Part shown: piece after piece, positions 1,504-61,447 of the stretch | Layout of the letters: the number at the start of each line of letters is the position of its first letter | Numbering within the stretch: the stretch's first letter is position 1 | From: Malania oleifera | Lineage: Eukaryota > Streptophyta > Magnoliopsida > Santalales > Ximeniaceae | DNA: 64,000 nt | NCBI RefSeq assembly: GCF_029873635.1 | Contig: NC_080426.1 | Coordinates: 54,946,093-55,010,092, forward strand | Direction of reading: 5' to 3' | Notes under the pieces: generated by a model | The model's input: the letters and a program-made list of their open reading frames with translations, nothing else | The model's database searches: none | Told to the model about the DNA's origin: nothing | Program-made: the position numbers and the translations under genes

Positions 1504-1722
1504 TTCGTCGACGAACGCTTCACGTTCATCAACGACGTTGCACTTTAGGCTCGTCGACGAGGGTATGCTTCGTCGACGAGTAGATACTAAGAGGATACAT
1601 GGGTGACTTTGAATTTTGTGAACGAGGGGGGAGGGGGGAAGTTCGTCGACGATTTGCCTTTTTGACCTCGTTGACGAGGTGATGTGGCTCGTTGACGAAG
1701 GTGACGTGGCTCGTCGACAAAG
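1504..1722 (+). repeat. array of TTCGTCGACGAA-type palindromes in the gypsy LTR
   Basis: About eight near-palindromes with core TCGTCGACGA lie in 220 bp: 1504-1515 (perfect 12-mer TTCGTCGACGAA), 1551-1560, 1569-1580, 1642-1652, 1665-1680 (ACCTCGTTGACGAGGT, one mismatch pair), 1688-1700 and 1711-1720, plus a weaker one near 1524-1536. Spacing is irregular, roughly 15-70 bp. The array ends 8 bp before the TATA box, so it occupies the core-promoter-proximal part of U3. It is strikingly CG-rich against an AT-rich background. Confidence 0.85.
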
Positions 1723-1729
1723 GCTAGTG

Positions 1730-1737
1730 TATAAATA
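1730..1737 (+). promoter_or_regulatory. TATA box of the gypsy LTR
   Basis: TATAAATA directly follows the palindrome array and precedes a CT-rich transcribed-leader-like stretch (AAACCCTCTCTCTCCCC near 1778-1795), as expected for the U3/R boundary of a plant LTR. Confidence 0.65.
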
Positions 1738-3213
1738 GTGTTAAACTCGGATTTTACGCAGAAATTTTCAGCCGAAAAACCCTCTCTCTCCCCTTTATAG
1801 TTCCTCCCTCTTCTCTTTTGAATTTCGGCCCCGTTAGTCACTGAATCGACGATCAGAGGCCACCACGACACTCTTGGGGAGGTTCTCTCCAAGTTTGTCA
1901 GAGAGGATCGTTCGTGGAACTGAGTTGAATTCCATCCCAGATTCAGAGTAAGACAATTTATTCAAAGTTAGACTTTCTAGCAGTTGTAGAAAATATAGTA
2001 GACGTAGAAATAATGATATTTTGTTCTGGAAAATGTTGCTTTCATGGTGTTGAGTAGGGAACCCTGCAGGTGTAGGACCCATCATAGTAGGGGATTTTAG
2101 TAGGAATTAGGTAAGGGAATATGCTAGGCTAGGAAGTTCTAGTATGATTTTCAATATGATATATATATTTTTACCAGATTATTATTCACAACAGGAATTT
2201 TATACAGTTATCAATTATGTTTAAGATGTTTTAATTACTGTGTGGCATGAGAATATGGATACAATATAACAATATGTTTTATAGTATTTTCAGGATTGTG
2301 TTTTATAGAATATACAGACAGGGGACATATTTTATAGTATTTTTCAGAATACCATGACTATTTAGTTTTACAGTACCATGACATACAAGTTTACAGTTAA
2401 TTTCAAAAACACAGTTAATATAGATACAGTTAATTACAACGTCATGGTTAATACAGTTATTACAGAATCATGGTGAAACATATAGTTGTATATAGAAACG
2501 TAATATATAGTATCAAACCCTAATGGACCATTACATATACAGTTTACAGAGCACAGTATCGTAGCTATATACAGTTCAGAGTGCAACCACATATTCAGAT
2601 AATATGTGGTATACAGAGTCGATCGTGCCTATGTTGTGGACAGGCTCTCCATTAGATATGGGTTGAGGGGGCCGATTTTACTGATGGAGTATAGTGATTT
2701 ATCCTGGTAGGCTAGCCAGTGATAGATCCCGCCTATGGGCCGCACAACCCTGTCATGAGGGGTTAAATTATGACATACAGTTATTCATAGGGAAGTTTTT
2801 CAGTATTTATATGTATATACAGTTTACAGAAATAGAGGATGTACTTATGTATATTAGAAGTATTATGAATAGAAAACTTATAAAATTAGTTATGTTAAGC
2901 AACGTGAACAAGGTGATATTATATATTATTTGTACCTGTATTCCCAGCTTCAATTATTTATGATTTTATAGAATAAGATTTTTGTAGAAATGTAATTCAC
3001 TTGCCACACACTAGCAATAACATATTTCGTCTTACTAAGCGTCGTCTTATCCCATTAAATTAACATTTTTTAGGTGATCCAAGTAGGCGAGCAGATCAGG
3101 CTCACAGGTAGAGGGGCTACAGTGCTGCACTGTCAGTAATGTGAGTATTTTTGGGAGCTCACCTCTGTATAGCCTAGTTTCAGCTGAGGGTATTTTGGGA
3201 ACATTAGTATATG

Positions 3214-3390
3214 TTGACCTGGAAAAATGGATAAAAATCCATTAATTCGAACCGTATCCAATTCGTTTTAACCGACTCATAATCATCCGTTTGCTAAATG
3301 AGTCGAATATGAGTTTTCATTTTCATATCCGCCCCCTTAGCGGGTCAGGTCGGATTTATCTGGTGGATATCCGCCAACCCGCTTATGAAA
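3214..3390 (+). repeat. left terminal inverted repeat and subterminal repeats of the hAT
   Basis: Begins TTGACCTGG. Motifs GGGTCAGGTCGG, ATCCGCC and AACCCGC repeat here and recur inverted at the right end (8090-8247), which ends CCAGGTCTA. They are likely transposase-binding sites by analogy with Ac. Confidence 0.75.
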
Positions 3391-5156: not shown

Positions 5157-7402
5157 ATGTCTCAGTTAGTAGCGAATTCAATTGATCAAAATGATGAAAT
5201 GAGTGAAGAAGAAGTTCAGTTGCCAGATTCATCAAACATAGAACCTACAAAAGAAACAACTCCATAGGTAAAAAGAGCTAGGAAAAAAACATCTATTATT
5301 TGGACAGATTTTGAGTTGATGGAAAATGGAGATAAACAATATGCCCAATGTAAGTATTGTCCTAAGAGATATCTCTACCGTAGTAAGAACTCTGGGACAT
5401 CAAACTTACATTGTCATATAAAAAAATGCATGGAAAAGAAAAATAATGATCTGAAACAAATGCTAATGAGTCAAGGTGATGGAAAGTTGTCTTTACATAC
5501 ACGAAAACTTGATCAAGTTGTACAACGTAGGAAGTTGGCAATGGCAATTGTGAGACACAATTTGCCCTTTTCTTTTGTTGAGTATGAAGGAATTCATGAA
5601 TGGGCTTTAGAATTAAATCCAGAGACAAAATTTGTGACAAGAAATACTGTAAAAGCTGATGTTATGAGGGTTTTTTTCAAGGAAAAAGAGCACATTCGTG
5701 AGCTTTTATTGAATAATTATAGTAGAATTTCTCTTATTTCGGACTTATGGACTTCGTTAAATACTGATGGCTATTTATGTTTAACTGCACATTTTGTGGA
5801 TAAAAATTGGAAGTTTTAGAAGAAAGTATTGAGTTTTTCAAGCATGCCTCCTACACACACTGGTCTAGCACTTAGTAACAAAGTTATGGACTTATTGGTG
5901 AATTGGGGTATAGACAAGAAATTATTTTCCATAACATTGGACAATGCTTCATCCAATGACTGTTTTGTAGAGTTTTTGAAATCTAAACTGAACTTGAAAA
6001 ATGCTTTGGTAAGGGAAGGACAATTTTTTCATGTTCGTTGTTGCACTCACATATTGAATCTCATTGTCCAAGATGGCCTAAAATTATCTCATTTCGCTGT
6101 GGACAAAATACGAGATTATGTCAAATATGTGAAGCATTCACAACATCGAAAGTTTAGATTTCATGAATGTTGTGAAAAGGTGAGAGTGCCATGTGTGAGA
6201 GGATTTCGCCAAGATTGTCCTACTAGGTGGAATTCTACTTATATAATGCTTGAAAGTGCTTTATACTATAGAGATGCTATTTGCCAATTCAGGTTTAGTG
6301 AGGAGAATTTCAAGTTTTACCCAAACGATGATGAATGGAAGGAAATTGAGAAAATTGCTAGTTTCTTGAAGGTTTTTTATGACTTGACAAATCTTTTTTC
6401 TGGGACATCTTATCAAACTGCAAATTTGTACTTTCAAGGAGTATGGAAGGTACAAGTAACTTTACTTAATGCGGCATTGGGTGATGATGTCTTTTTAAGG
6501 GATGTGGCTACTCAAATGTAAGGGAAATTTGACAAATACTAGTCAGATTATAGTAAAATTTTGGCAATGGCTGTTATTCTGGATCCTCGTTTCAAGATAC
6601 AATTTGTATCTTTTTGTTTAAAAGAAGTGCAACCAATGTCTTGGAAAGATCGAGTAAACGACATCCAACGTGAGATGCATTCACTTTTTGATGAGTATGT
6701 GAAGCACCACTCTCCTTCGACTTCTAAGAAAATGCATTCCTTTGAAGCAACTATTAGTCATGACCGTGGTCATATGACACCTATTGCAACATCAGTTGAT
6801 GTGACACTAAAAGTAAGATTTTTTTTTGAAGTACAACTTTTATTTTACTTTTATTATACATCTATAGAATTTTTATATTTCTATTGTTATATACTTGTTT
6901 TTAGGGTTTTAAAGCTTTTGCTAAGGAAGATGAAGAAGCTCCTATGTCAGAACTAGAAATGTTTTTTAGAGAGAGGATGGTAGATTGTGATAAAGAATTG
7001 GATATTTTGGACTTTTGGAGGAGTCATGAATATAGGTATCCGATTCTTTCTCGAATGGCAAGAGATATCTTATCAATTCCAATATCAATTGTTGCATCGG
7101 AATTAACATTTAGTATTGGAGGAAAAGTGATAAATATGTCACGTAGTTCTCTTACGCCTGATAATGCTGAAACTATCATTTTAACTCGTGATTGGCTGTA
7201 TAGTCAAGGAGGTATGCTTATTTAATTATATTTCTATGTTATTATAATTATTATGTATTATGCAATATTTATTTATTTATTTATATTTTGAATTTTGAAT
7301 GCAGTTGAAGATTTTGTAGATAAGGAAGAACTTGCTGAAGATATTGCTCAAGCTGAAAGAGCAGGTCGTACCTCATCTAGTGTATCATCTTGCTCTATTT
7401 GA
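5157..7402 (+). pseudogene. hAT transposase (BED zinc finger, RICESLEEPER/DAYSLEEPER type)
   Basis: The gene moves the element by cut and paste. The ATG at 5157 is followed by an acidic leader, then a BED zinc finger (C-K-Y-C at 5349-5360 with H and C about 20 residues on), the hAT catalytic core (SLISDLWTS and NGYLCLTAHF-like text near 5730-5800, CCTHILNLIVQDGL near 6040, DCPTRWNSTY near 6210, MAVILDPRFK near 6570) and the C-terminal dimerisation domain (DFWRSHEYRYPILSRMARDIL near 7010). Two introns fit GT-AG rules and keep the frame: 6813-6904 and 7212-7304. The last exon runs from 7305 to TGA at 7400-7402. Four in-frame stops break it: TAG 5265, TAG 5817, TAA 6519, TAG 6540. No frameshift was seen, so decay is recent and by point change. 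The TAGs could come from CAG or TGG by cytosine deamination. Confidence 0.9.
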
Positions 7403-8372: not shown

Positions 8373-8375
<3 letters not shown>

Positions 8376-8384
8376 TTAGAAGGT

Positions 8385-14270: not shown

Positions 14271-14475
14271 AGAACGCAAAACTGCAAGCTGCGGTGCCGG
14301 AAAGGGTTTTACCAGAAACACAAACCCTAACTCGGACTTTGCTTTCAGTCCTCCACTATATTCAAGCAGAGGTGGTGAGTCATCTTCGTAAATTTTGTAT
14401 TTCTTTTCCTCTACACTTTTCTAATGTTCTCTCATCATCATAATTTTTTATCGAACTCAATCCCTTGAAGCTATC
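14271..14475 (+). promoter_or_regulatory. PORR gene promoter/5' leader with telo-box
   Basis: Base composition becomes less AT-rich here. A telo-box AAACCCTAA (14322-14330) and a nearby GGGTTTT (14304-14310) lie upstream of the ATG at 14476. Telo-boxes are common in promoters of plant genes for translation and organelle biogenesis, usually close to the transcription start. A clear TATA box is absent. Confidence 0.55.
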
Positions 14476-16068
14476 ATGGAACCCAATCTCTGCCTTTCTT
14501 CCCCAAAAGCTTTAGCATGTACTCATTCTCCCATCTTTCTCCCATACAAGGCCCCTTTCCTTGAAAATTCGGGACTTTCTGTGAAGTCCCATCTCTCCTT
14601 CCCATCAAAACAAGCGGAGAGGACACAATTTTTTGGCCAAGGTTTGATTTTACGAGAGAAAAACGCTGCTTTGGTTAGTTCGAGAAAGGCCCATGTCCCA
14701 TTTCACCCAATAAGAGCTTTTGTGAAGAGAAGAAAAGAGCTTCCCTTTGATAATGTTATCCAAAGAGACAAAAAGCTCAAACTGGTTTTGAGGATAAGGC
14801 ATATTTTGTTGAGTCAACCTGATAGGATAATGTCGCTTCAGTACTTGGGTAGATTCAGGCGGCATCTTGGTATTAAGAAAAAGCGAAGATTCACTGCTTT
14901 ATTGAAGAAGTTCCCTGCGGTCTTCCAGATTGTGGAAGAAGGGGCTTTTTCACTTAAATTCAAATTGACTCCGGAGGCTGAGAGACTCTACTTGGAGGAG
15001 TTGAAAGCTAGGAATGAAATGGAAGATTTAGCAGTTGTCAAGTTGAGGAAATTGCTGATGATGTCGGCAGAGAAGCGGATTCTTTTAGAGAAGATTGCTC
15101 ATTGGAGAACTGATTTTGGGCTTCCATTTGAATTTCGCGATACAATCTGTCGAAGGTATCCCCACTATTTTAAGGTCGTACCAACTGCGCGAGGCAATGC
15201 TCTAGAATTAACTCATTGGGATCCCAGGCTTGCTGTTTCTGCAGCTGAGCTCTATGAAGAAGAAAAGCGCGCGAGAGTGTTGGAAGAGAAGAATCTAATT
15301 ATAGATAGACCCCTTAAATTTAATAGAATTAATTTACCAAAGGGTCTTAATCTTCCTAAGGATGAGATGAAAAGGATTTGTAGGTTTAGAGACACGCCTT
15401 ACATGTCGCCATATTCTGATTTTTCTGGATTGAGGTCTGGTACAATGGAGAAAGAAAAGCATGCTTGTGGGGTTGTTCATGAGATCTTGAGTCTCACTAT
15501 TGAGAAGAGAACACTTGTGGATCACTTCACTCATTTTCGAGAGGAGTTCAAATTTTCGCAGCAGCTGAGGGGGATGCTGATAAGGCATCCTGATATGTTC
15601 TATGTGTCCTTGAAGGGGGATAGGGATTCAGTTTTCCTCAGGGATGCATATCATGATTCTCAGCTGATTGAGAAGGATAGGCGGTTGCTCATTAAGGAAA
15701 AATTTCGTGCACTTGTTGAGTTTCCCAAGAGGAGTGCACATAAAAGTGATATAGATGGTGTAGAAGGATCTGACAATCCCGAAGGTGGAAGTGCTGGGGA
15801 GGAGGAAGAAGAATGGTCTGATGTGGATACTTTATTGATTGATGGACTGGATGAAGAAGAAGAATATGATGACGACGATGACGAGGCTGACTATGAGGAT
15901 GATTGGAGTGATGAAGATGATGATATGCCACCAGATTTCTATGGAGATGATAGAACCCCGAAGCTTGAATCAGATCAAATGATTAAACAGGCTAAACACT
16001 TAACTAAAAATGAAGAGAAGGTGCTTGTTCCTGCATTTCCTGATGGTCGGAGAAGAGAACGGTGGTAA
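14476..16068 (+). CDS. WTF1: PORR-domain chloroplast RNA-binding protein, WTF1-like
   Basis: A 530-residue intronless gene. Residues 1-80 are Ser-rich, basic and poor in acidic residues, like a plastid transit peptide. Residues about 83-415 form a PORR domain (plant organelle RNA recognition): FVKRRKELPFDNVIQRDKKL, then KFPAVFQIVEEG, FRDTICRRYPHYFKVV, and HPDMFYVSLKGDRDSVFLR. Residues about 437-492 are an extremely acidic tail of Asp/Glu runs ending MPPDFYGDD, followed by a short basic end. In maize, WTF1 is known to act with RNC1 in splicing of many chloroplast group II introns. PORR proteins as a family serve group II splicing in plastids or mitochondria. The acidic C-terminus and transit-like N-terminus are what point to WTF1 rather than RPD1 or WTF9. 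The ATG at 14476 is the first in the frame and gives the targeting peptide. No damage is seen, so the gene is probably functional. Confidence 0.88.
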   Translation: MEPNLCLSSPKALACTHSPIFLPYKAPFLENSGLSVKSHLSFPSKQAERTQFFGQGLILREKNAALVSSRKAHVPFHPIRAFVKRRKELPFDNVIQRDKKLKLVLRIRHILLSQPDRIMSLQYLGRFRRHLGIKKKRRFTALLKKFPAVFQIVEEGAFSLKFKLTPEAERLYLEELKARNEMEDLAVVKLRKLLMMSAEKRILLEKIAHWRTDFGLPFEFRDTICRRYPHYFKVVPTARGNALELTHWDPRLAVSAAELYEEEKRARVLEEKNLIIDRPLKFNRINLPKGLNLPKDEMKRICRFRDTPYMSPYSDFSGLRSGTMEKEKHACGVVHEILSLTIEKRTLVDHFTHFREEFKFSQQLRGMLIRHPDMFYVSLKGDRDSVFLRDAYHDSQLIEKDRRLLIKEKFRALVEFPKRSAHKSDIDGVEGSDNPEGGSAGEEEEEWSDVDTLLIDGLDEEEEYDDDDDEADYEDDWSDEDDDMPPDFYGDDRTPKLESDQMIKQAKHLTKNEEKVLVPAFPDGRRRERW

Positions 16069-19650: not shown

Positions 19651-19755
19651 CAATAAATTAGACATTTAATGTTATAAAATGATCCCTTGTGATTAGGTTT
19701 TAAATGTTTCATAAACTTCATTTGTTATTAGGAGTTTTTTGAATTTATGCTTTGT

Positions 19756-20283
19756 TGTGCAAATAGTATACACCAATGCACAACGAAAACATAAATTGAA
19801 TCAGACGTGCAATGCAGCAACCAAGGATGAATAATATGAAACAATCAATCACAAAGATAATAAAGGAAAGCAATAAAATCACACGACACAAGAATTTACG
19901 TGGTTCGACAATATGCCTACATTCATAGGAGCAAGTGACTAGATTTTCATTATTAATAATCGAAGCTTACATCAAGGTTTATAAAGTTTTATTATTTATT
20001 CTAATCCTATACGTACAAAAGGCTTAGAAACTTCGTAAAGTACCCCTGTAGCAAATCTCAAAGGAAAATCCTTCGAATCCCCCAATCTACTGATCTTACC
20101 AATTCAAATTCCATAATTAGCGCCAAACAAAACTGTCGACAGTTTCAACAAACCATCGATGGTTTCATACTAAAACTAATTCCTACAGAATGAATCCATG
20201 AACAATTATCTCCCAAGGGCAAATCGTCGATCATACCGTCGACCAAATAGTCGATGGTTTCTTCCTCCAGCACAACTTCCTTA
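19756..20283 (-). repeat. left (3') LTR of a minus-strand copia element (family C)
   Basis: About 530 bp align almost collinearly with 22576-23110, including a shared stretch from GAATAATATGAAACAATCAA through ATCACACGAC. Because the coding remnants between them read on the minus strand, this is the 3' LTR. It carries the palindromes AAACTGTCGACAGTTT (20130-20145) and AAACCATCGATGGTTT (20150-20165), both perfect. Confidence 0.8.
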
Positions 20284-20606
20284 TTCTTTGGTCCACCGAG
20301 AGGTGTCTCACCCCAGCGAATTATTGTCTTTTGTCCTTCTGGTGATTGAGCTTAGAAAGCTCAGGGGCAGGGTTAGAATTTTGGTGACTTGTGAGTGGTA
20401 GTAAGAATTGAAATATGTATAATTATGTTTTAGAATTTTTGGTTATGTAATATATGTGGATGGATACTCTTTTTTGGGTTGTATATAGTACTTTGGTATT
20501 TTATTTGAGGTTGTTCATTATTTTTCCGCTGCGTGAATGGTATTAGAGACAGTGATATTGGTCTCATCACACCCTAGACCCCACTTGGCAGGTTTGGAGC
20601 GTGACA
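20284..20606 (+). repeat. fragment of a gypsy LTR (3' part)
   Basis: Plus-strand text GAGAGGTGTCTCACCCCAGC, then GTATATAGTACTTTGGTATT and an end at GAGCGTGACA. This is the 3' portion of a gypsy LTR of the kind also seen at 1425 and, inverted, at 10528 and 28011. It lies between the left copia LTR and the copia coding remnant. Confidence 0.55.
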
Positions 20607-22570
20607 CCTAGACACCCAAATACTCTTAACTCAGAGTAGTCTACCACATTACCTCTACAACTTTCTCATCTAGTGATGCCCTTGGTGATTGGTTAACCAA
20701 GAAACATGTCTTATTTACTGCTTTTGCCCCTAGAAGTTCCTTGCAAGCGTTGTATTCAACCTAAGACACGGACCGCTTTCAACTAGAGTTCGGTTCATCC
20801 TTTCCGTCACACCATTCTGTTGTGGTGTCCGGTGTACTGTAAAATGTCTCCTTATGCCATGCTGCTCACAAAGAACCTCGAATCAGTGTGCTTAGTTTCG
20901 TTGTCAGACCTGAGGCATTTAATCTTTCTCCCGGTATAGTTTTCCACCTTAACTTTCCACAATTTAAACTTGGCAAAAGTCTCTGACTTGTGCTGCATGA
21001 AGTACACCTAGACCTTACGTGAGTAATCATCAATAAAGCTCATGAAATACATATATCCTCCGTGTTATGCTACTCTTATGTGTGGCTACATATATCCTAA
21101 ATGTAGTCTAGGATTCCCTTCGTCTTGTGTGTGGTTGTCTTGAACTGCACCCTATTTTGTTTTCCCATAACACAAAACCTACAGAAGCTCAGCTTGCATG
21201 ATTTGACCCCCTTCAAAAGATTTTTTTTATGAAACTCCATCATTCCACGCTCACCTATATACCCTAGCCACATATGCCACAAGATCATATCATCCGACTC
21301 AGACTCTGCAATTACAACTCCACCTATAACTGTAGTACCCAGCAGTGTGTACATATTCCTTGGTACTTTCTGCCGCTTCATCACAATCAGAACACCTTTA
21401 CTCACCTTTATTACCCCACTCTCAGACTTGTAACTAAACCCGCTACAGTCTAAAGTGCATAATGGAATCAAATTCTTTCTCAGTTTCGGTATGTGCCTAA
21501 CTTTACATAACGTCCTCACTACACCATCGAACATTTTGATTATGATATTCCCTATTATGACAATTTTGCATGAAGCATCATTCCCCATCAGAATAGTGCC
21601 ATAATTTACCAACCTGTAAGTGGTGAACCAGCCTTTGTTGGGCGTTATGTGATACGAACACTCCGAATCTAAGATCCAAGAATCTGTGAGACCATATGAA
21701 CAGGATGAAACCGAAAGCATATCACCATCACCGCTCCCTGAGTATCCTTCTTCCACTACATTTGTCGTGTTTGATGAACCCTATTTATTTTAAGCATTCC
21801 CTTTCTTCCTTCCTGGACAATCGGGTTTTATGTGCCCTTTTTTCCCGCACTTAAAATACCGCACGTCCTTCCTCTTCCTAAAATTGGACCGAGCCCTATT
21901 GTTGCTTGGTCCACTAAGGAACTTGCTTCTCTCATGATCCTGGTTCTCCTTCACCTTGCGAACTCTCATCGGTGACCTTATTCCTCTGATGAAACCCCAA
22001 CAATGCACTTGTGATATCCTTCAACTCTAGGGTTTCTTTCCCCAATGTCAAATTCATAACCAGATTCTCATACGTAGGAGACGTAGGTAGAGAATTCAGC
22101 AACATCAACACTTTGTCTTCTTCCTTGAACTCCAAATCAACCCGCTTCAGATCACTGATGATTTGATTGAATACGTTGATGTGTTGATTCAGATATGAAC
22201 CCTCTGTCATCTTAAGCCTATAAATTTTTTACTTAAGATACAACTTGTTCGTTAATGACTTGCACATATACCGGCTCTCCAGTTTTAGCCAAACTACCGC
22301 TGGAGATTCCTCATTTATGACGTGATACATCATGCCATCAACCAGACAAAGACTGATAGTAGCCACAACCTTCGCTTCCAACTCCTTCCAACTCATGTCG
22401 TCCATGCCTCCCAATTGTTTTATGTATAGTGCCTTCACCATACCTTACTGCACTAAAAAGCCCTTAACCCTCCTCAACCAAAGTTTGAAATTTCCCATTC
22501 CATTGAACTTAACAACATTGAACTTCGCTGAAGAAATCCCAGCCATTGCAACCGATAGCTCTGATACCAA
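20607..22570 (-). mobile_element. copia element family C, gag to integrase (minus strand)
   Basis: Reading the minus strand from the right: a primer-binding site TTGGTATCAGAGC (22557-22569), a gag with start MAGISSAKFNVVKF near 22550, the gag domain (SDLKRVDLEFKEEDKVLMLL near 22130), a CCHC zinc knuckle (CGKKGHIKPDC near 21820), the protease/pre-integrase region (WILDSECSYHITP near 21680) and integrase pieces down to about 20610. RT and RNase H are not present between the LTRs. A fossil with numerous breaks. Confidence 0.85.
22557..22569 (-). promoter_or_regulatory. tRNA-Met primer-binding site of copia family C
   Basis: The minus strand reads TTGGTATCAGAGC, the complement of the initiator tRNA-Met 3' end, a few bases inside the 5' LTR. 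This sets orientation and LTR boundary. Confidence 0.8.
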
Positions 22571-22575
22571 TTTTT

Positions 22576-23145
22576 TGTGTAAAGAGTATACATCAATGTG
22601 CAACGGAAACACAAATTGAATCGGATCGTACAATGCAACAACCAACGATGAATAATATGAAACAATCAATCACAAAGATAATAAAGGAAAGCAATAAAAT
22701 CACACGACATAAGAATTTACGTGGTTCAGTAATATGCCTACGTCCATGGGAGAAAGTGATTGGATTTTCACTATCAATAATCGAAGCTTACATTAAGAGT
22801 TACAAAATATTTTTTTTATTCTAAACCTATACGTACAGAAGACTTAGAAACTTCCTAAAGTACCCCTATAGAAAATCTAGAGGAAAAACCTCTAAATCCC
22901 TCAATCTACCGATCTTCCTAATTCAAATTCTGTGATAAGTGTCAAACAATACTATCGACGGTTTAATACCAAGACTGATTCATGCAAATTGAAACCGTCG
23001 ATGGTTATCTCCCGAGGGCAAACCATCGATCATACCGTCGACCAAATAGTCGACGATTCTTCCTACAACCTAACTTCCTTGTTCTTTGCCCCACCATGCT
23101 TTCCCGGTGCATGTGTTCCACTAAATATGAGCCACATATCCAACA
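22576..23145 (-). repeat. right (5') LTR of the minus-strand copia element (family C)
   Basis: Pairs with 19756-20283. The outer end is set at the TGTTGG (minus strand) at 23145, which is an inference. No 5-bp duplication matches across the pair. It contains a palindrome cluster at 22953-23068 with GTCGAC and ATCGAT centres (for example AACCATCGAT near 23022 and GTCGAC near 23037 and 23050). The two LTRs differ at perhaps one base in ten, so the insertion is old. Confidence 0.75.
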
Positions 23146-33126: not shown

Positions 33127-33136
33127 GTATATATAG
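33127..33136 (-). promoter_or_regulatory. TATA box of LTR copy B2
   Basis: Minus strand reads CTATATATAC within AATTCTATATATACCCC. The same position holds CTATAAATAC in B3 (54630-54639) and CTATAAATAG in B4 (61591-61600), each following the palindrome array. Confidence 0.65.
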
Positions 33137-33249
33137 AATTGGGTGAAAATATGACCATTGGGGATACAAGGGGAATTTTAGAAAAAAGTTTAACAATTTT
33201 AATTATAAATTAACCCTTGTTAACCATGGTAAAAACCTGTTAACTTGAG

Positions 33250-37516: not shown

Positions 37517-37551
37517 TTCCCCCTCTCTTCAAAAGGATTCGACCTCAAATC
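37517..37551 (-). other. inverted purine-tract stub joining the two LTR orientations
   Basis: Reads on the minus strand as the same text as 38740-38774 (ending GAAGAGAGGGGGAA), i.e. the internal region just before the LTR. It is fused at 37551/37552 to the plus-strand LTR, which lacks its first bases. The joint shares the letters AATC with both partners. Confidence 0.8.
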
Positions 37552-38423
37552 AATGAGCACCATTGAAGGATCCATTGCATGTTTCAGTTGGCCCTATCAC
37601 TAGAGCAAGATCAAAGAAGATCAAAGAAGTACTTCATGGGCTTATTCAAGATATTTGGGCTTTTTAAAAAATGGGGCACTCCAAGTTTGGCCTTAAGAAA
37701 GATGAAGGTTTAATAAAAGTTAATCCAAGTTTTTGATGGAGTTGATCTTGCTTAATGGTTGTAATCTCCTTAATAATTGTGTGCTAATTCAAATATGGGA
37801 TTTGACTTAATGGTGTAATATTACAAGACAACTTAGCTTGCATGGGTTTTTAGTAAGTTGTGAGAGTCATTAATGTGTCTAGTAAGTTGGTGTTTTTATT
37901 ATGTGTGTCTCCCATGTTTGTGTGGGAATTGCTAAATATTTAATGTCCTTGTCTCCCATGTTTGTGTGGGAATTGTTAAGTGTTTAATGTCCTTGTCCCC
38001 CATGTTAGCTATATATATCTCACCATTGCAAGAGGACAACATAATGGAATAAAAATGTGAGGCTTTGTTTCTTCTTGGTTCTTTTGAGAACTTGTGAACT
38101 TATCAAGGAATCCTTCCTTGTGGCGTTCAAATTTTATACCTTTGGTTCATAATTTAATTATAATCATTGGGTTGAGATTTTATACCTTCGGTTCATGATG
38201 CAATTATAATCATTGGGTCAAAGTTTGTTACTTTATACCTTTGGTTCATGATTAAGTTATAATCATTGGGTCGGGGTTTGTTACTTTATACTTTCGGTTC
38301 ATGTTTCATTTATAAACATTGGGTCGGAGTTTCCTATCAAAAATCTGAATTTTAGCTTTCTTGGACAAACATTCCAACATTGTTTGCTGGGTCTCAATAC
38401 ATGTCGATTTGAGGTTCGCATCA
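37552..38423 (+). repeat. LTR of the non-coding element, first plus-strand copy
   Basis: Nearly identical over its length to 38775-39654. It ends GGTTCGCATCA followed by the primer-binding-like TTTAGTATCAGAGC. Confidence 0.88.
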
Positions 38424-38774: not shown

Positions 38775-39654
38775 TGATGAGAATCAATGAGCACCATTGA
38801 AGGATCCATTGCATGTTTTAGTTGGCCCTATCACCAGAGGGAGATCCAAGAAGATCAAAGAAGCACTTCATGGGCTTATTCAAGATATTTGGGCTTTTTC
38901 AAAAACGGGGCACTCCAAGTTTGGCCTTAAGAAAGATGAAGGTTTAATAAAACTTAATCCAAGTTTTTGATGGAGTTGATCTTGCTTAATGGTTGTAATC
39001 TCCTTTATAATTGTGTGCTAATTCAAATATGGGATTTGACTTAATGGTGTAATATTGTAAGACAACTTAGCTTGCATGGGTTTTATTAAGTTGTGAAAGT
39101 CATTAATGTGTCTAGTAAGTTGGTGTTTTTATTATGTGTGTCTCCCATGTTTGTGTGGGAATTGCTAAATATTTAATGTCCTTGTCTCCCATGTTTGTGT
39201 GGGAATTGTTAAGTGTTTAATATCCTTGTCCCCCATGTTAGCTATATATATCTCACCATTGTAAGAGGACAACATAATGGAATAAAAATGTGAGGCTTTG
39301 TTTCTTCTGGTTCTTTTGAGAACTTGTGAACTTATCAAGGAATCCTTCCTTGTGGCATTCAAATTTTATACTTTTGGTTCGTGATTTAATTATAATCATT
39401 GGGTCGAGATTTTATACCTTCGGTTCGTGATGCAATTATAATCATTGGGTCAAAGTTTGTTACTTTATACCTTTGGTTCATGATTAAGTTATAATCATTG
39501 GGTCGGGATTTGTTACTTTATACTTTTGGTTCACGTTTCATTTATAAACGTTGGGTCGGAGTTTCCTATCAAAAATCTGAATTTTAGCTTTCTTAGGCAA
39601 GCATTCCAACATTGTTTATTGAGTCTCAACGCGTGTTGTTTGAGGTTCACATCA
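38775..39654 (+). repeat. LTR of the non-coding element, second plus-strand copy
   Basis: 880 bp, TGATGAGAATC to GGTTCACATCA, directly after the purine tract. It holds a TATA-like GCTATATATATCTC near 39240. Confidence 0.88.
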
Positions 39655-42969: not shown

Positions 42970-44115
42970 TAGGCTATGGGGGCATTAGTTCTCAAATCTG
43001 AGTAGTTCTTTCCAAGTTGTTCTGTCTACTTCGAATACTTGGGACATTAGTTCCCAAATATGAGAAGTCACTTCCAAGTTATTATGTCTATCTCGGAGGC
43101 ATGTGACATTAGTTCTCAAATCCAAGTAGCCACTTCCAAGTTATTTTGACTATCTAAGAGGCATGTGACATTAGTTCCCAAAATGGAGTAGTTGCTTTCA
43201 AGTTATTATGGCCATCTCGGAGGCATGTGACATTAGTTTCCAAATCTAAGTAGTAGTTTCCAAGTTATTTTGACTATCTCGGAGGCATATGACGTTAGCT
43301 CTCAAATATGAGTAGTCACTTTCAAGTTATTTTGGCTATCTTGGAGGCATGTGACATCAGTTCCCAAATCTGAGTAGTCACTTCCAAGTTATTTTGGTTA
43401 TCTAGGAAGCACGTGACATTAGTTCCCAAATTCAAGTAGTCACTTCCAAGTTATCTTGGAGGCATGTGGCATTTGTTCCCAAATCCTAGTAGTCGCTTTC
43501 AAGTTATTTTGGCTATCTCAGAGGAATGAGACATTAGTTCTCAAATCCGAGTAGTCACTTCTAAATTATTTTGGCTATCTCAGAGGTATGTGACAATAGT
43601 TTCCAAATTTGAGTTGTCGTTTCTAAGTTGTTTTGGCTATCTCAGAGGCACGTGATATTAGTTTCCACATCCGAGTAGTAGCTTCCAAGTTGCTTTCGCT
43701 ACCTCAGAGGCGTGTGATAGTAGTTCCTAAATTTGGATAGTCGTTTTCAAGTTGTTTTGGCTATCTTGAAGACATTTGGCAATAGTTCCTAAATTTGAGT
43801 AGTCATTTCTAAGTTATTTTAGCTATCTCGGGGGCATGTGGCAATAGTTCCTAAATCCGAGTAGTCGCTTCTAAGTTATTTTGGTTATCTCAGTGGCATG
43901 TGACAATAGTTCCCAAATCTGAGTAGTCACTTCTAAGTTGTTTTGGTTATCTCATAGGCATGTGACAATAGCTCCAAAATCTAAATAGTCGTTTCCTTTG
44001 GTTGTCTTAGAGGCATATTGCATTAGTTCTCAAATCTGAGCAGTCATTTTTAAGTTGTGATGATTTATCTACCTTAATGGCACGAGGCATAGTTCCTAAA
44101 TCCATGGCAGTGATC
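42970..44115 (+). repeat. 62-bp tandem repeat array in the Tat/Ogre-type 3' untranslated region
   Basis: About eighteen diverged head-to-tail copies of a 62-bp unit, with landmarks ACATTAGTTCCCAAATCTGA, AGTAGTCACTTCCAAGTTAT and GGCTATCTCGGAGGCATGTG. 62 is not a multiple of three and all frames close, so it is non-coding. Some units are shorter by internal loss (for example near 43455). Known background: tandem repeats in the region before the 3' LTR are a documented source of satellites in plant Tat/Ogre elements. Confidence 0.92.
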
Positions 44116-46237: not shown

Positions 46238-47189
46238 TATAATATAAAATAATATTTAATTATATTTAAATCCTAAAATTTATTATTTCAAATACATCGA
46301 TAGTGTTCCAAAAATAGAATATTATGTGACTTTGCATAGAGAAGTAAAAAAAAAAAACTTTCAATTGTCTTCGATATTCTTATCTCCAAACCAACAATCA
46401 TCAAGGATAATCTCATCCATGTGATATAGAATTTATTAGGGAAAAAGTAAAAAGGAAAAGAAAATAAATTTATTTATTAATTTATATTTACTTTTTATAT
46501 CAAATATCACAAAAAATTTAAAAAATATTCTAATATAATAAAAAATAAATTAAATATTAATAATATATAAAATAAAAATTTTATATATCAAATTAATATT
46601 TTTAATTTTCATTTTTTACTTTTCATAATAACTAAATATGGAAAAAAAAAAAATTCTCTTTTACTTCTTTTCTTTTTTTTAATACTTTCCCACCTCTAAA
46701 CATGTCTATAAAGTCTCAAACTTATTACAATTATTTTGAGCCTACTAATACAATGTCGTTGATTTTTCATATATAAAAAATTTTAAAGTACACTAGATGT
46801 AAATTTTGACGCCAAAATAATTTTAATATATATAAAAAATAACCGCAATTACTCAATTTAGTTTAATACATATATGGTGAAATCATGTTAATTTCGATAC
46901 ATACAGTTAATGTACCTAATATGTTTTTTTTTTTTTTCAAAATTAATTTAATATTAGGTAAAAGTAAAAATAAAAAATAAAAAAAATTGTATAAAAACGT
47001 GCAAGAATTATAAAGGTGAATTTCATTCTGTACCAAACAAATCACTGGATAGGCGTCCTTATCCACTAGAAGTCCTGGTTCCAAACCTCAGACGTCTGTA
47101 TTTTCTACGCACTCTGCACCAATGTGGTCTCTTCAATATTGGTTTAACGGCAATTTCTTCACACTTCTGCACGTACACTTCAAGCCTCC
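46238..47189. other. upstream region of the PPR gene
   Basis: AT-rich. No clear TATA box. The composition changes near 47010, which may mark the gene's promoter and leader. A short plus-strand frame at 47122-47364 overlaps the PPR start in another frame and is not a gene. Confidence 0.5.
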
Positions 47190-50018
47190 ATGGAGAAGCT
47201 CACTCCATTGCACCACTTTAGCCCATCTCTCCTTCAATGTCCCCTCACCGACAATCTATTTAGATGCCGTTCCACCACTCTTTATTCTACAGACATCTGC
47301 CCTGAAAATTCACCTTTTTCTTCTTCGTCTTCTTCTTCTTCTTCTTCTTCTTCTTCTTCACTGAGAGTCACGCCAAACTTTCGCTTCCTCAATGTCTCGA
47401 ACGAGCTCAATTCTTTAAATTCAGTAAAAAGAACGCATGCCCAGATAATAAAAATGACGAAGATGTGGAATTCAGATGCCCTGGCAAAGAGTTTGATTAC
47501 ATTTTACTTGAGTTTTGGTGATTTTAAGTCGGCCGCAACAGTTTTCTTTGTGGGTTTTGCACGGAACGATCTATCATGGAGTCCATTCCTAAAGGATTTT
47601 GAAAATGCAGGTGGAAATCCACTTGAAATTCTTGAGGTTTTCAGCGAATTGCATCGCAAAGGGGTGCTATTTGAGAGTAAAGTTCTTGCTTCTGTTTTGA
47701 GAACTTGTGCGGTTTTAATGGACTCATGGCTTGGTGTGGAAATTCATGCTTTGTTAATTAAGAAGGGCTTTGATGTGGATGCTTATTTGAACCGTGCACT
47801 GATGAATTTTTATGGGAAGTGTTGGGCTATAGACAGCGCAAATAACGTGTTCTACGAAATGCCGAACAAAGAAGATGCATTGTGGAATGATGCAATTCTA
47901 GTGAATTTTCAGAACGGGAGACCAGAGAGGGCTCTTCGACTTTGTCGAGAAATGCAGTTGTCATTTGTGAAACCCAACAGCTCTACTATTGTCAAACTAC
48001 TGCAAGCAAGTGGAAAGGAGGGAGCTCTCAATCAAGGAAAGCAGATTCATGGGTATGTTTTACGGTTTGCCCTGGAATCAAATATGTCCATATGCAACTC
48101 TATGATTAGCATGTACTCCAAAAACAATAAACTTGAACTGGCTAGAAAAGTTTTTGATTCAATGGAAATCCGTAATTTATCTTCATGGAACTCTATCATG
48201 TCGGGCTATGCTGCTCATGGTTATTTAAATGATGCATGGAATCTTTTCAAAGAAATTAAATCCGTGGGTATGGAGCCAGACTTGGTATCCTGGAATTGCC
48301 TTCTATCGGGCCATTTCCTTCATGGGTTGTACCATGAAGTCCTCATAATTTTGCGGAGAATGCAAGACGAAGGTTTGAGGCCAAACTCAAGCTCCATTAC
48401 TAGTGCTCTTCAAGCAATCAGTGAAATGAAGTTATTGATATTGGGAAAGGACATCCATGGCTATGTGATAAGAAATGGACTCGACTATGATATATATGTG
48501 GAAACATCACTGGTAGATATGTATGTGAAAAATGATGACTTGGGCAGTGCTCAAGCAGTTTTTGATAATATGAAGAGTAGAAATATTTTTGCCTGGAATT
48601 CTCTAATTTTAGGATATTCCCTCAAGGGCCATTTTGAAAATGCTTTGAAGCTGTTGAATTTGATGGAGAAGGATGGAATTAAACCTGACTTGGTGACATG
48701 GAATGGTTTGGTTTCTGGGCATTCAATGTGGGGCCACACAAGGGAAGCTTTGGCCACGATCCATCAAATCAAAAGTGTGGGCTTGACTCCCAATGTGGTT
48801 TCATGGACTGCTTTAATATCTGGCTGTTCACAGAAAGGAAACTATGAGGATTCCCTGAGATTTTTTACTGAAATGCAGCAAGAACGTATCGAGCCCAACT
48901 CTGTCACCGTGTCTAGCTTGGTTCAGGCTTGTGCAGGCCTGTCTTTGTTACAGAAGGGTGAAGAGGTACATTGCCTCAGTATAAGAAAAGGTTTCATTGA
49001 CGATGTATGTGTTGCAACAGCTCTTATTGATATGTATTGTAGGTCAGGCAGAATAAAGAATGCCCATGGAATTTTTCAGGGGATTCAAAACAAAACATTG
49101 GCCTCTTGGAATTGCATGATTATGGGATTTGCCATCCATGGCCTTGGAAAAGAGGCAATTTTGCTTTTCAATGAAATGTGTAAGTTGGGTATCCAGCCAG
49201 ATGCAATAACCTTCACAGCCATACTCTCTAGTTGCAAGAATTCGGGTTTGTTGGATGAAGGATGGAAGTTCTTTGATTGTATGAGCATTGATTATAAAAT
49301 AGTGCCAACAATAGAGCATTACTCTTGCATGGTTGATCTTCTCGGTAGAGCTGGGTATCTAGATGAAGCTTGGGATTTCATTCAAATGATGCCATTAGTG
49401 CCCGATGCTACTGTTTGGGGTGCTCTTCTTGGATCTTGTCGAATACATAAAAACTTGGAGCTTGCAGAGATTGCAGCAAAGAAACTTTTCAAGTTGGAAC
49501 CATATAATTCTGCCAATTATGTTATAATGATGAGCTTATATGCAATTTTGAAAAGATGGGAGGATATGGATCGTCTGAAACGCATGATGAGAGTTGTAGG
49601 GGTGAAGAATCGCAATGTATGGAGTTGGATTCAAATTGATAACACAATCCATGTGTTTTCAGAAGAAAGGTCCCATCCAGATGAATGGAAGATATACTTT
49701 GAGTTATATCGGCTGGTTTCTGAAATGAAGAAATTGGGTTATGTGCCTGATATTGACAGTGTCTATCAAAACATTGATGAGAAAGAGAAGGAGAAGGTGC
49801 TGATGGGTCATACTGAGAAGTTGGCCATTACTTATGGACTGATTACGATGAAAAATAAGAGACCAATCAGGGTGATTAAAAACACAAGAGTCTGCTCTGA
49901 TTGTCATGCAGCAGCAAAATACATTACGTTGGTAAAAGGTATTGAGATATCCCTCAAGGATGGTGTCCGTTTTCATCATTTTAGGGAAGGGAGGTGTTCC
50001 TGTAATGAATGCTGGTAA
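47190..50018 (+). CDS. DYW-class pentatricopeptide repeat protein, At4g01030-like
   Basis: A 942-residue intronless gene. The N-terminus (1-60) is a Ser-rich organelle-targeting-like segment with a run of about fifteen Ser (from codon 44) encoded by TTC/TCT repeats. PLS-type PPR motifs span about residues 120-750 (for example SWNSIMSGYAAHGYLNDAWNL, SWTALISGCSQKGNYEDSL, SWNCMIMGFAIHGLGKEAI). E domains follow, then a DYW deaminase domain with zinc ligands H874-T-E876 and C902-S-D-C905. The C-terminus is E-C-W instead of D-Y-W. PLS-DYW proteins bind organelle transcripts and usually edit C to U in mitochondria or plastids. From memory, the Arabidopsis protein At4g01030 (PCMP-H65, annotated mitochondrial) shares the repeat order and the phrases IPTIEHCSCMVDLLGRSGYL and GYVPD. 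The target site is unknown. The ATG at 47190 is the first in frame and supplies the targeting peptide. No breaks seen. Confidence 0.92.
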   Translation: MEKLTPLHHFSPSLLQCPLTDNLFRCRSTTLYSTDICPENSPFSSSSSSSSSSSSSSLRVTPNFRFLNVSNELNSLNSVKRTHAQIIKMTKMWNSDALAKSLITFYLSFGDFKSAATVFFVGFARNDLSWSPFLKDFENAGGNPLEILEVFSELHRKGVLFESKVLASVLRTCAVLMDSWLGVEIHALLIKKGFDVDAYLNRALMNFYGKCWAIDSANNVFYEMPNKEDALWNDAILVNFQNGRPERALRLCREMQLSFVKPNSSTIVKLLQASGKEGALNQGKQIHGYVLRFALESNMSICNSMISMYSKNNKLELARKVFDSMEIRNLSSWNSIMSGYAAHGYLNDAWNLFKEIKSVGMEPDLVSWNCLLSGHFLHGLYHEVLIILRRMQDEGLRPNSSSITSALQAISEMKLLILGKDIHGYVIRNGLDYDIYVETSLVDMYVKNDDLGSAQAVFDNMKSRNIFAWNSLILGYSLKGHFENALKLLNLMEKDGIKPDLVTWNGLVSGHSMWGHTREALATIHQIKSVGLTPNVVSWTALISGCSQKGNYEDSLRFFTEMQQERIEPNSVTVSSLVQACAGLSLLQKGEEVHCLSIRKGFIDDVCVATALIDMYCRSGRIKNAHGIFQGIQNKTLASWNCMIMGFAIHGLGKEAILLFNEMCKLGIQPDAITFTAILSSCKNSGLLDEGWKFFDCMSIDYKIVPTIEHYSCMVDLLGRAGYLDEAWDFIQMMPLVPDATVWGALLGSCRIHKNLELAEIAAKKLFKLEPYNSANYVIMMSLYAILKRWEDMDRLKRMMRVVGVKNRNVWSWIQIDNTIHVFSEERSHPDEWKIYFELYRLVSEMKKLGYVPDIDSVYQNIDEKEKEKVLMGHTEKLAITYGLITMKNKRPIRVIKNTRVCSDCHAAAKYITLVKGIEISLKDGVRFHHFREGRCSCNECW

Positions 50019-58003: not shown

Positions 58004-58128
58004 TGTTAATGTATATAACACTTGTCCCACATCGATTTGATAAACAAATCTTTCCTTTAGACTAGACTATAAATAGGATACCTCTCTTGTATATAAATCA
58101 CACTATTCAATATAATTCAGTTCTCTTG

Positions 58129-58174
<46 letters not shown>

Positions 58175-60664
58175 ATGGTATCAGAGCTGCTATTTTCTTT
58201 TAGTGGTCCTTAGCCTATCCAGAGTTGAGTATGCTCTGTGATTGCCACTATAAGTGGATCTTTCACATCAAAAATACTTCTTGTGCAACCTCAGTATATC
58301 AAGAGTTAAGTATGCTTTGTGATTGCAACTATTATTAGTTCATCCTTCATATTAGAAAAACTTCTTGTATATCCTTTTCCTACTTGTTTGATAGCCTCTA
58401 GCCATTGCCTACCTCCGACCGCCACCATTGCCTTTGATCGCCACCGCTCGTATCTAGTCACCACCTTCGACCGCCCGCCTTTGGTCCCTGCCTCTGACCG
58501 TAGCTGCCCGTCTCCTGTCGCTGCCTCTAACCAAAGTTGCTTCTTTCCATTTGCCACCACCCTCCTCTAGCCACTATCTTCGCCTTCGCACACTATGGAG
58601 CATCTTGAGGCTTCAAAACCCATTGCCATCATTATGGAAGGCCCCAACTACATTGTATAGGCTTAGGCTATGTTGAGTTTTCTCAAGGGCAGAAAGCTTT
58701 GGAGATATCACTGAACCAGAGAAAACTGATGGTGAAGCCAATATCAAATACATAGACCATCTTGTGGAGTGGGATAGAAAAAACCACCAGATCATCACTT
58801 GGATTTGCAACACGTGCATACACTCCATTACTCTCCAGTTTGGGAGATTTAAAACTTCCAAATCACTTTGGGACTTTTTGGAGAAACGTTACACCATTGC
58901 AGATTTGTTTCATCAATATCAACTTCTAGGCACCCTACACCGCATGCAACAACAAGCTGGGCAATCCATCAATAATTTCCTATCTGAGATGCACTATGTT
59001 TGGGATTAACTTGCTTCCTCAGAACCAGAATTTACAGATGCCACTAATGTAGAAAAATTTTCCAAATATTGGGATTGTAACCACTTGGTTCTTTTTCTAA
59101 TGGCCCTCACAAATGACTTTGAGCATGTCTGTGCATCTCTCCTTCATCGCAGTCCCTTACCTACTTTGGATCAAGTTGTCACTGAACTTCTCTCTGGAGG
59201 AAACTCACATTGCCCCTCACAAGACGACCCCTATAGATACTATGTTCGCCACTCCCAGGGGACCTCACGCCAATACAAAGAGCCTCCATTTAGGCTTTCA
59301 AAGAAATTTTGCAATTACTGTAAGAAACTAGGACACATTCTATTGGAATGTACGGTTTGAGTTTACCACTTTTATTAGAGACAAGCCCCTAGTCATCTTC
59401 AACATGATTGTTTCCAAAACCCCAAGAGACATTCCGAGCAATACCTATTTTGTGGTACTCCTAGATCCGCCGCCACTACTGCCGAATATTCATCATCCAC
59501 TACTTCCATTGAAACGTTCTCTGCTTCTAACATAGATCAAATTATCCAACAAGTCCTTTCTCATTATGGTAATCCATCCTCAAATGTTATGTTTGTAACC
59601 TTAGGTAATTCATCTTGGTTCTCTGACTCTGCATGTTGTAATCACATGACACCTGATTCCACCCTCTTTTCCACCAAACATCTTGCTAGCCATACCCGGG
59701 CCATTCAAACTTCTAATGGTTCTCCTATGAACGTGAGACATATAAAAAAAATTTCAACATTAAACACTTCTCTTCCTTATAATTATTGTATTCCTCAGCT
59801 CACTCTCAATCTTATATCTGTTGGTAAATTATGTGACTTCGGTCCAACTATCATTTTTTTTGCTTCTGGTTGTTGCGTGTAGGATCCATAGACGGGACAA
59901 ACTCTTGGATTAGGCCGTAATGTTGGACGACTCTTTGAGCTCATTAATATTCAAATTCCATCTTGTTTCTCCTCATCAGTTCAGATGGCAGCTCCAGTCT
60001 CATCCACACCATCCATCAGTTTTGGCATTCTTATCTTGGTCATACTTCTGTTGGTTGCCTCAAAACCATAGTGTCTAGTGGTCATTTGGGGCTTGTTAAT
60101 AAAAAACAATTTAATTTTCTTTCTTGTCACCCTTCAAAAGTGACTCATCACAAAAGTTTCTCTTCTTCTTCTGCACCATTTGACTTAATTAACTTTGATG
60201 TTTAGGGCCCATCTCCCACTGCTACTATGGAAGGCTCTTAATATTTGTCATTTTTATTGACGATTACTCCGGTTACACCTAGATATTTCTTATGTGTAAT
60301 CAATATGAATTACCCCAATTGTACTTTGATTTTGCTACCACGGTCAAAACTCAATTTTCTTGCAATATCAAAGTATTTCATGCAGACAATGTAGCTAAAT
60401 ACATAGACTCTTGAGTCCTTAACAATCTTCACCAACATGGCTTACTTTCTCATCGTTCATGTCATGACACCTCTTAACAAAATGGGTGTGCTGAGAGCAA
60501 ACACCAAAACATTCTCAATAACGTTCGTGCTCTTCTCATATCTGGTTTGTGTCTTGAACATTTGTGGGGTGAAGCTACTCTTATAGCTGTTTACACCCTC
60601 GGGCTTGGTTTGCCAAGTTTATTACTATTGACTTTTTGAGTCCGTCTCCTATTTTGATTATTAC
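58004..60664 (+). mobile_element. copia element F, 5' LTR, gag, protease, integrase (fossil)
   Basis: A short LTR (58004-58172) starts TGTTAATGTATATAAC, has a TATA box (CTATAAATAGG near 58068) and ends in a (CT)n run. A primer-binding site TGGTATCAGAGC follows at 58176-58187. Plus-strand coding pieces: gag (TWICNTCIHSITLQFGRF near 58797), zinc knuckle (FCNYCKKLGHILLEC near 59310), protease (SSWFSDSACCNHMTPD near 59610) and pre-integrase/integrase (near 59990-60600). It gives way to a family-B LTR near 60670. Broken in many places. It resembles the copia at 26308 in LTR start and gag. Confidence 0.88.
58131..58171 (+). repeat. (CT)n microsatellite at the end of the copia F LTR
   Basis: About 20 CT dinucleotides directly before the LTR end and primer-binding site, so the microsatellite is part of U5. 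Confidence 0.9.
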
Positions 60665-61108
60665 AAACGATAGTATCTCATCAGTGTGCTTAGTGTATGA
60701 ACAGGTCTAGCTTTCTAAAGCGCAGATGACACATTAGAAATAGAAGCTGAAAAGCACTCAAATGAGCACATCTTTCGATGCAATCCATGGAATTCTTGAG
60801 GAGTAGAGCATGAAGCCTTTGTCTGTTTTAAGTTGTATTTTTATATTTATCATTTGGGTCTGTAATTATAATGAAAGGTTTGTAATAATTAATGCATATC
60901 ATGCATGTAGGGATTATAAGCTCAAGACCATAGATGGACCTTTTCGGTCAACCGACACCAGATTTTTAGGACTAATTAAAATGCTCAAAGACCTTTGACT
61001 GACCAAAGGTCCAAATATATTGCATGAAAAAACCCCCATATATTTTAAAAGTGGTAATCATATGAATAGGGGTGACGTCAAATGAAATTAAGACTGAATT
61101 TTACAAAG

Positions 61109-61447
61109 TTGGTGTGTTCGGTCGATCGAACCCCAACATAAAGAGCACTTCGGTTGACCGAACCTCTTTGGTGTAAAAAATTTGACCAATTGGTTGACCA
61201 CTTCTAAAATGAACTGCAATGCCCTGGTCAACTAAAGTGGTACGTGGGGAAACCCTAACGCCCTGGTCAACCGAACTTGTAGTAGAAAAATGGTCTAGTT
61301 GACCGAACGTTCAACTTTGGTCAACCGAACTTGACCTAGTCGACCAAACCTCAAAGATCCAAAAATCGCCTCAAGTCTAGTCGACCATCTCCTTAGTTCA
61401 AAAACAACCTGGTTGACTGAACTGAGCAACCCGGTCGACCGAACCTT
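61109..61447 (+). repeat. array of GGTCGACC-type palindromes in LTR B4
   Basis: About ten units: GTTCGGTCGATCGAAC (61116-61131, perfect 16-mer), TTCGGTTGACCGAACC (61150), GGTCAACCGAAC repeated, CTAGTCGACCAAACC (61338), CCGGTCGACCGAACC (61430). An outlier lies at 60949. The array ends about 145 bp before the TATA box. Confidence 0.88.

Follow-up and report, generated by a model that had tools for sequence, protein, structure and literature searches.

Palindromic GTCGAC arrays upstream of TATA-like sites in Ty3 and Ty1 long terminal repeats of Malania oleifera

A stretch of 64,000 nucleotides of the Malania oleifera genome (GCF_029873635.1, contig NC_080426.1, positions 54,946,093-55,010,092, forward strand; hereafter the window) carries retrotransposon long terminal repeats (LTRs) in which palindromic sites centred on GTCGAC are clustered upstream of a TATA-like site. 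An earlier sequence-only reading of the window had proposed that unrelated lineages share sites of this kind. This is borne out for two superfamilies, Ty3 (family A) and Ty1 (families B, C and D), by their domains, by the distribution of a C-rich integrase signal and by the promoter-near position of the sites. We consider, at a probability of roughly 0.55, that the arrays represent enhancer boxes in the unique 3' (U3) region that would be bound by a shared host factor.

Arrays in the window and across the genome

The seven LTR palindrome arrays named from the sequence alone are all present at the positions given. GTCGAC occurs 23 times in the window, whereas 100 dinucleotide-preserving shuffles average 2.69 and never exceed 6. 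Twenty-two of these sites fall inside the seven arrays, which cover 1,839 of the 64,000 bases, and the remaining one is situated at position 51984, hence the hexamer is indeed nearly absent outside the arrays, as had been claimed. By a z-like score GTCGAC ranks third among the 64 palindromic hexamers of the window, with TATATA and ATATAT ahead of it, and no other of the 16 hexamers with a central CG is a strong outlier. Cores of the degenerate form RTYRAY reach 31.0 per kb in the arrays (57 cores) versus 5.4 per kb in the rest of the window (338 cores), and the outer dyad pairs around them average 2.14 of 4 in arrays versus 1.20 elsewhere (Mann-Whitney p = 2.4e-9). The CpG density amounts to 35-110 per kb within the arrays versus 15.9 in the remaining window; three CpGs each are contained in the intact A motif, the intact D motif and the CGGTCGACCG form of B.

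A similar enrichment was found in a sample of twelve 6 kb stretches (72 kb) taken at round coordinates from as many large contigs elsewhere in this genome, one per contig. Here, GTCGAC is the first of the 64 palindromic hexamers, with 33 sites versus 4.32 expected (60 shuffle sets, maximum 10). They are confined to four of the twelve stretches (19 in L067, 8 in L073, 5 in L070 and 1 in L063); L067 and L070 carry both A-type and B-type arrays and L073 carries the B type. When all 1,494,336,490 bases of the genome were searched, the A pattern YTCGTCGACGAR was counted 121,972 times and the B pattern YBGGTCGACCVR 97,533 times, versus 30 and 147 sites, respectively, for controls in which the same arms flank the core GACGTC. 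The pattern AACCGTCGACGGTT gave 2,630 sites versus 4 for its reversed letter order, a CpG-free control, and the three intact patterns sum up to 222,135 sites. At first look, 7,295 candidate loci were obtained for A, 7,574 for B, 1,188 for D and 729 for C. The arrays are thus enriched over shuffled sequence in both window and sample, and they are distributed over the genome instead of being restricted to the few copies first noticed. A chance origin is ruled out by the shuffles of window and sample together with the core-swapped genome counts.

Lineage, arms and position of the boxes

For each family 40 candidates were scored, and the best-scoring copies were analysed (10 for A, 8 for B, 30 for D and 10 for C). 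Family A is assigned to Ty3 on the basis of its predicted integrase. Its 3' LTR of Ty3/gypsy chromovirus type (1425-2700, plus strand, 2700 being the end of the stretch inspected) starts with TGTAATGACCC and contains eight cores of the YTCGTCGACGAR type at 1504-1722, followed by a TATA-like site at 1730-1736, 11 bp past the last box core. An integrase C-terminus with SH3_Tf2-1 domain and a chromodomain remnant are located at 650-1154 on the same strand in two reading frames, which were searched as two pieces. The SH3_Tf2-1 match (E 1.1e-28, 99.6 bits, cut-off 30) is as expected of a Ty3/gypsy chromovirus, and the Chromo match is weak (E 0.00074, 19.8 bits, under the curated cut-off of 25.1). 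The integrase piece was detected near A-type arrays in three of the ten A loci (the window copy L040, L044 and L046) and in the sampled L067, and it was not found within 1.5 kb on each side in the other seven A loci. From the LTR start and the domain order, family A may belong to Tekay. The C-rich integrase signal of Sireviruses was found in none of the ten A loci on the element strand and in one on the opposite strand. Moreover, blastn detected zero similarity between the A and B LTRs, which rules out a single common ancestor of the two.

Three Sirevirus-type LTRs of family B are present in the window. Copy 1 (28801-30900, minus strand, ends approximate) has 14 cores at 30210-30765, copy 2 (31930-33700, minus strand, ends approximate) has 10 cores at 33250-33612, and copy 3, a 5' LTR (60900-62746, plus strand, left end approximate), has 11 cores at 61109-61447. 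Their TATA-like sites, read by eye, lie on the respective strands at 30110-30116 (at a distance of 114 bp), 33128-33135 and 61592-61598. In copy 3 the poly-C integrase signal is found at about 62710-62735 and is followed by TGGTATCAGA, which resembles a primer-binding site; as judged by eye at the LTR ends, the C run is clear in copies 2 and 3 and interrupted in copy 1. Family C is represented by two LTRs on the minus strand (19751-20297 and 22571-23095, given as the extent of the repeat) with five cores each at 20130-20262 and 22953-23068, the second LTR being followed by the primer-binding-like site TGGTATCAGAGC. Pieces of gag and of Pol_BBD/gag-pre-integrase of the copia kind were seen in stop-to-stop frames at 21100-22444 (minus strand). 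The domains in the window (Retrotran_gag_2, Pol_BBD and gag_pre-integrs) as well as those of a further C locus, L061 (RVT_2, SH3_retrovirus, Retrotran_gag_2 and Pol_BBD), place family C in Ty1/copia, possibly in Tork if one goes by the resemblance of its gag motif.

The family D array (35303-35415, plus strand) consists of four cores of the AAACCGTCGACGGTTT type, with a TATA-like site at 35516-35526 on the same strand, about 109 bp past the last box. It has zero GTCGAC, which corrects the claim of a core common to all families as far as the window copy of D is concerned; other D copies do have GTCGAC. Directly after the D stretch starts a repeat of about 850 bp, perhaps inserted into the D LTR, which occurs three times (35632-36448, inverted relative to the other two, 37548-38423 and 38782-39654; 82.5-95.4% alike).

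The C-rich Sirevirus signal was found on the element strand in six of the eight B loci and in 11 of the 30 D loci, in D always at 809-909 bp, and anywhere on the opposite strand in none of the B and three of the D loci. In family C it was found in none of the ten loci on the element strand and in one on the opposite strand. Because of this distribution, B and D are regarded as Sirevirus-like and C as copia without the signal. Clusters of palindromic repeated motif (RM) boxes with a TATA box downstream of them are also characteristic of B and D; since A and C have boxes upstream of TATA as well, box clusters are not a Sirevirus marker in this genome. The sequence AGGGGGAG, in Sireviruses a polypurine tract adjoining the 3' LTR, was seen once inside the D element L060, far from the 3' LTR of that element. 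One D gag piece shows 30-36% identity to loci with B-type arrays (L073, L008 and L067), a match made weak by the C gag, which also matches one D locus at 35%.

The arms of the boxes were compared using chosen templates with C-to-T and G-to-A changes allowed. The 16 bp arms of AAACCGTCGACGGTTT amount to 3.3 per kb in C and 3.6 in D and are missing from A, B and the sample; B arms reach 6.2 per kb in B itself and do not exceed 0.13 in A, C or D, and those of A amount to 1.9 per kb in A and zero in B, C and D. Hence, of the four families said to have differing arms, three arm types are left, those of C and D being identical. Since C and D agree while B and D differ, the arms are independent of lineage.

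Measured from the last core, the nearest downstream TATAWA is found at 11 bp in nine of ten A copies and at 114-150 bp in seven of eight B copies. For D, 23 of 30 copies have it at 106-110 bp, with 19 exactly at 109 bp, and 28 of 30 have it within 350 bp. The view that the arrays of A, B and D end upstream of a TATA box is thereby supported, the distance being near constant per family and not scattered, though this constancy is in part due to descent. Family C, which that view had not included, also has a TATA-like site downstream, at 118-137 bp in nine of ten copies; in the window C copy TATAWA is absent within 350 bp after the array. As to the spacing of the boxes, 54 distances below 160 bp between neighbouring intact A boxes, taken from the first 100 places listed, form a lattice near 22 bp (20 at 19-25 bp, 11 at 44-46 bp and 11 at 63-71 bp). 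In L067, a B-type array at 5655-5982 has its boxes in a 20-20-33 bp pattern, i.e. in a higher-order unit of 73 bp.

Decay of the boxes and possible functions

Boxes were called in the aligned copies wherever half of the rows or more had RTYRAY; this gave eight boxes for A and thirteen for B, three for D, where a further half box is visible by eye, and three for C, where about five are visible. Intact GTCGAC was present in 99 of 294 box cells, and the differences comprise 261 transitions, 109 of them at the central CG, versus 29 transversions, a ratio that is an upper bound since the calling rule favours transitions. Independent of that rule, the boxes vary more between copies than the spacers in all four families (identity 0.80 versus 0.88 in A, 0.77 versus 0.88 in B, 0.74 versus 0.83 in D and 0.76 versus 0.82 in C). 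Most of the one-step variants, which the sequence-only reading had taken as a set of related sites, therefore look like decay of GTCGAC by C-to-T or G-to-A changes. The perfect variants AAACTGTCGACAGTTT and AAACCATCGATGGTTT each differ by two symmetric changes of this kind from AAACCGTCGACGGTTT and are most simply regarded as changed AAACCGTCGACGGTTT. The variants as a set of separate functional sites were rejected in view of the C-to-T/G-to-A pattern, with the bias of the box calling towards transitions kept in mind, and many of the sites seen in old copies probably derive from a single motif by decay. Deamination of methylated cytosine would be the simplest reading of the changes. Because the boxes vary more between copies than the spacers do, conservation among copies cannot show selection on them; hence, the case for function rests on their recurrence in unrelated LTRs plus their position. 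It may also be mentioned that CpG decay of A and B boxes gives GTTGAC or GTCAAC, both holding TTGAC, the core of the W-box. As an idea, old copies may gain W-box-like sites in this way and so switch their regulator.

If the arrays are enhancer boxes, clusters of about 4 to 14 palindromic GTCGAC-centred sites in U3, upstream of the LTR TATA box, would be bound by a host factor, either as a dimer on the palindrome or at each half-site, and this binding would promote transcription of the element. The use of the same core by Ty3 chromoviruses, by Sireviruses and by another copia lineage might be due to convergence or to takeover from each other, one core in several lineages being expected because the same host factor would be available to every element. 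After insertion, the host would methylate the CpG-rich boxes, and silent copies would decay to GTTGAC, GTCAAC, GTCGAT and ATCGAC. Regarding the factor, the PLACE entries CRTDREHVCBF2 (GTCGAC) and CBFHV (RYCGAC), as given in the available part of PMC9138379, fit the palindrome on both strands; by this motif match, an AP2/ERF protein of the DREB/CBF kind is a candidate. We tentatively put forward, at odds below even, the wider notion that the promoters of several unrelated retrotransposon lineages share one host factor as their activator: Ty3 and Ty1 elements would have converged on or exchanged the GTCGAC palindrome, with arms independent of lineage and more than 220,000 intact sites, and a Ty3 relative in another plant would use a different palindrome.

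That relative was found when the A integrase piece was compared with bacterial and archaeal genome contigs. The one locus obtained, L001 (NZ_VCHY01000045.1, a 4.9 kb contig) in an assembly of Labilibacter sediminis, is probably plant contamination and contains a plant-type Ty3 element related to A (54% identity over 114 residues). Its LTR has zero GTCGAC and carries two near-identical 16 bp palindromes with another centre, closely upstream of a weak TATA-like site. In number, the palindromes of this LTR do not exceed chance (4 versus a shuffle mean of 1.28, maximum 5, 200 shuffles), the sole stand-out being the near-repeat of the same 16-mer 31 bp apart. A further copy of the element was not found in its assembly, the single match being the locus itself, and protein scans of viral contigs found no relatives. 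This one case suggests that the box architecture may be common, with the core differing between hosts.

Alternatively, the boxes could be kept for RNA structure, in that pairing among them would give the genomic RNA a long branched hairpin at its 3' end, which would protect, package or process the RNA and incidentally feed small RNAs, as proposed for maize Sireviruses. In five arrays the fold is better than in their dinucleotide shuffles (z -7.1 for A, -4.7 and -5.0 for B copies 2 and 3, -3.0 for C copy 2 and -6.6 for D), and small RNAs occur at the maize Sirevirus palindromes, as described in the available parts of PMC5311732 and PMC10760457. With the boxes held and the spacers shuffled, the native sequence keeps a folding advantage in B (mean z -2.62 over 8 copies) and to some degree in D (-1.39, 28 of 30 copies), i.e. 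part of the advantage there persists beyond the boxes. The corresponding values are -0.49 for A and +0.57 for C (10 copies each); the spacers add nothing in these two families, hence the fold there is a by-product of the boxes, a structural RNA role beyond the boxes is unlikely, and RNA structure beyond the boxes is rejected as the sole account. Furthermore, loopless even palindromes are poor single hairpins, and a promoter role better fits the place upstream of TATA. Taken together, RNA structure appears rather unlikely as the reason for the boxes.

The high CpG density of the arrays and the predominance of transitions among box changes would also be compatible with the boxes being mainly a silencing target, a CpG-dense methylation-sensitive switch for a host silencing factor or methyl-binding protein. 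However, silencing is better seen as a consequence, and since the element gains nothing from being such a target, the recurrence of the core in several lineages would be left unexplained, which makes this explanation improbable. Likewise, the regular units of 20-20-33 bp in L067 and the 22 bp lattice of adjacent intact A boxes could be traced to tandem duplication of a short U3 unit, the arrays then being a functionless by-product of recombination or replication and the shared core going back to few founder events. The recurrence of the core with three arm types in otherwise unlike LTRs and the arms shared by C and D across lineages speak against such an origin, which we regard as distinctly improbable.

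Several points weigh against enhancer boxes as well. The arrays fold as RNA far better than shuffles, and the constant TATA distance among copies of one family is partly mere descent. Moreover, the next 350 bp, taken as control, contain TATAWA in ten of ten A copies (at 83-141 bp), one of eight B, 17 of 30 D and three of ten C copies; the weight thus lies on the presence of a TATA-like site downstream of the arrays in all four families. Helical phasing of the boxes is a hint only. The best period in B arrays is 10.5 bp (75 spacings, R 0.45; equalled by 0 of 2000 jittered sets), but these arrays share ancestry and their spacings are therefore not independent; among the intact B places listed in the genome search the signal near 10.8 bp is less pronounced (p 0.013) and is outscored by a period of 8.0 bp, and no significant helical period was found in the A sample arrays (p 0.118) or in C with D (p 0.20). 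The test included all 75 B and 30 A spacings; leaving out 13 of B and one of A (distances of 4, 8 and 9 bp from overlapping cores, a single distance of 147 bp and six belonging to the 20-20-33 pattern) did not alter its outcome. The Ty3 element at L001 has another palindrome without GTCGAC, hence the core is not universal. The copies studied are the best-scoring ones of about 40 per family, and family copy number inflates the genome counts, which accordingly stand for abundance and not for independent origins. Finally, the box-calling rule also favours constancy of T2 and A5, which adds to the caution regarding the transition ratio.

The remaining features of the window are of a different kind. 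Two ordinary host genes were noticed on the plus strand, an open frame of 547 residues with a PORR domain (plant organelle RNA recognition) at 14425-16068 and one of 956 residues with PPR repeats and a DYW deaminase domain at 47148-50018. A tandem array at 42981-44104 has a period of about 62 bp, as deduced from self-matches that are 72-77% alike. Many TTAGTGACGGTTT-like motifs are found in both orientations at 34600-35100 and resemble what we take to be subterminal repeats of a DNA transposon.

Relation to known LTR boxes

Repeated or symmetric host-factor sites upstream of the LTR promoter are a feature of the Tnt1 type of element, with other sequences than in the arrays described here. U3 activator boxes of Tnt1 and its relatives are named in the available parts of PMC2829016 and PMC10760457, which tell of no core common to superfamilies. 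The same portion of PMC10760457 states that regulatory regions of transposable elements often are arrays of sometimes palindromic repeats, hence the principle of palindromic arrays is not new. The closest known system is that of the Sireviruses, for which LTR palindromes had correctly been mentioned in the sequence-only reading. According to the accessible text of Bousios et al. 2010 (PMC2829016), 13 Sireviruses carry palindromic repeated motifs upstream of TATA that form CpG islands, among them the grapevine box CGGTCGACCG, which even has the GTCGAC core, and the Tnd-1 box ACAATCGATTGT; a C-rich integrase signal marks the Sirevirus LTRs. Like the arrays in M. oleifera, these RM boxes are numerous, palindromic, CpG-rich and situated in the first LTR half upstream of TATA. 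The grapevine motif equals the core plus inner arms of family B, which thus represents a further member of the Sirevirus box kind. Family D is Sirevirus-like, yet its arms do not appear in Table 3 of that paper. The palindromes CACCGGACNNNGTCCGGTG in LTRs of maize Sireviruses (PMC5311732 and PMC10760457, as far as available) are similar in being clustered in the LTR regulatory region and tied to predicted structure and small RNAs; they differ by another core, a single lineage and a monocot host.

In the part of the 2010 survey that could be consulted, the boxes are called Sirevirus-specific and absent from other Ty1/copia elements of its set, and Ty3 elements are, as far as seen, outside that set. 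Unlike there, the core was found here also in copia elements without the Sirevirus signal (family C) and in the Ty3 chromovirus type (family A). That Ty3 LTRs and non-Sirevirus copia LTRs within one genome have this core in common appears to be new. No report of palindromes in Ty3 or chromovirus LTRs was found in the accessible literature, which mostly leaves out subscription journals, so that their absence from print is not thereby shown; among the listed papers containing the box motif strings only the 2010 Sirevirus paper concerns LTRs, as judged by titles. The described insertion-site preference for palindromes (PMC6911290, part available) relates to target sites and not to LTR arrays, and it was discarded as an explanation.

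Collectively, the palindromic boxes in LTRs of this genome are not confined to Sireviruses, unlike what the 2010 survey concluded from its own set. If one host factor is indeed the common activator of several lineages, the LTR box would represent a host-specific key that elements must match, and the direct test would involve one protein, one site and several lineages. If a single factor drives different superfamilies through a common box, the joint expansion of certain families within a genome would become easier to understand.

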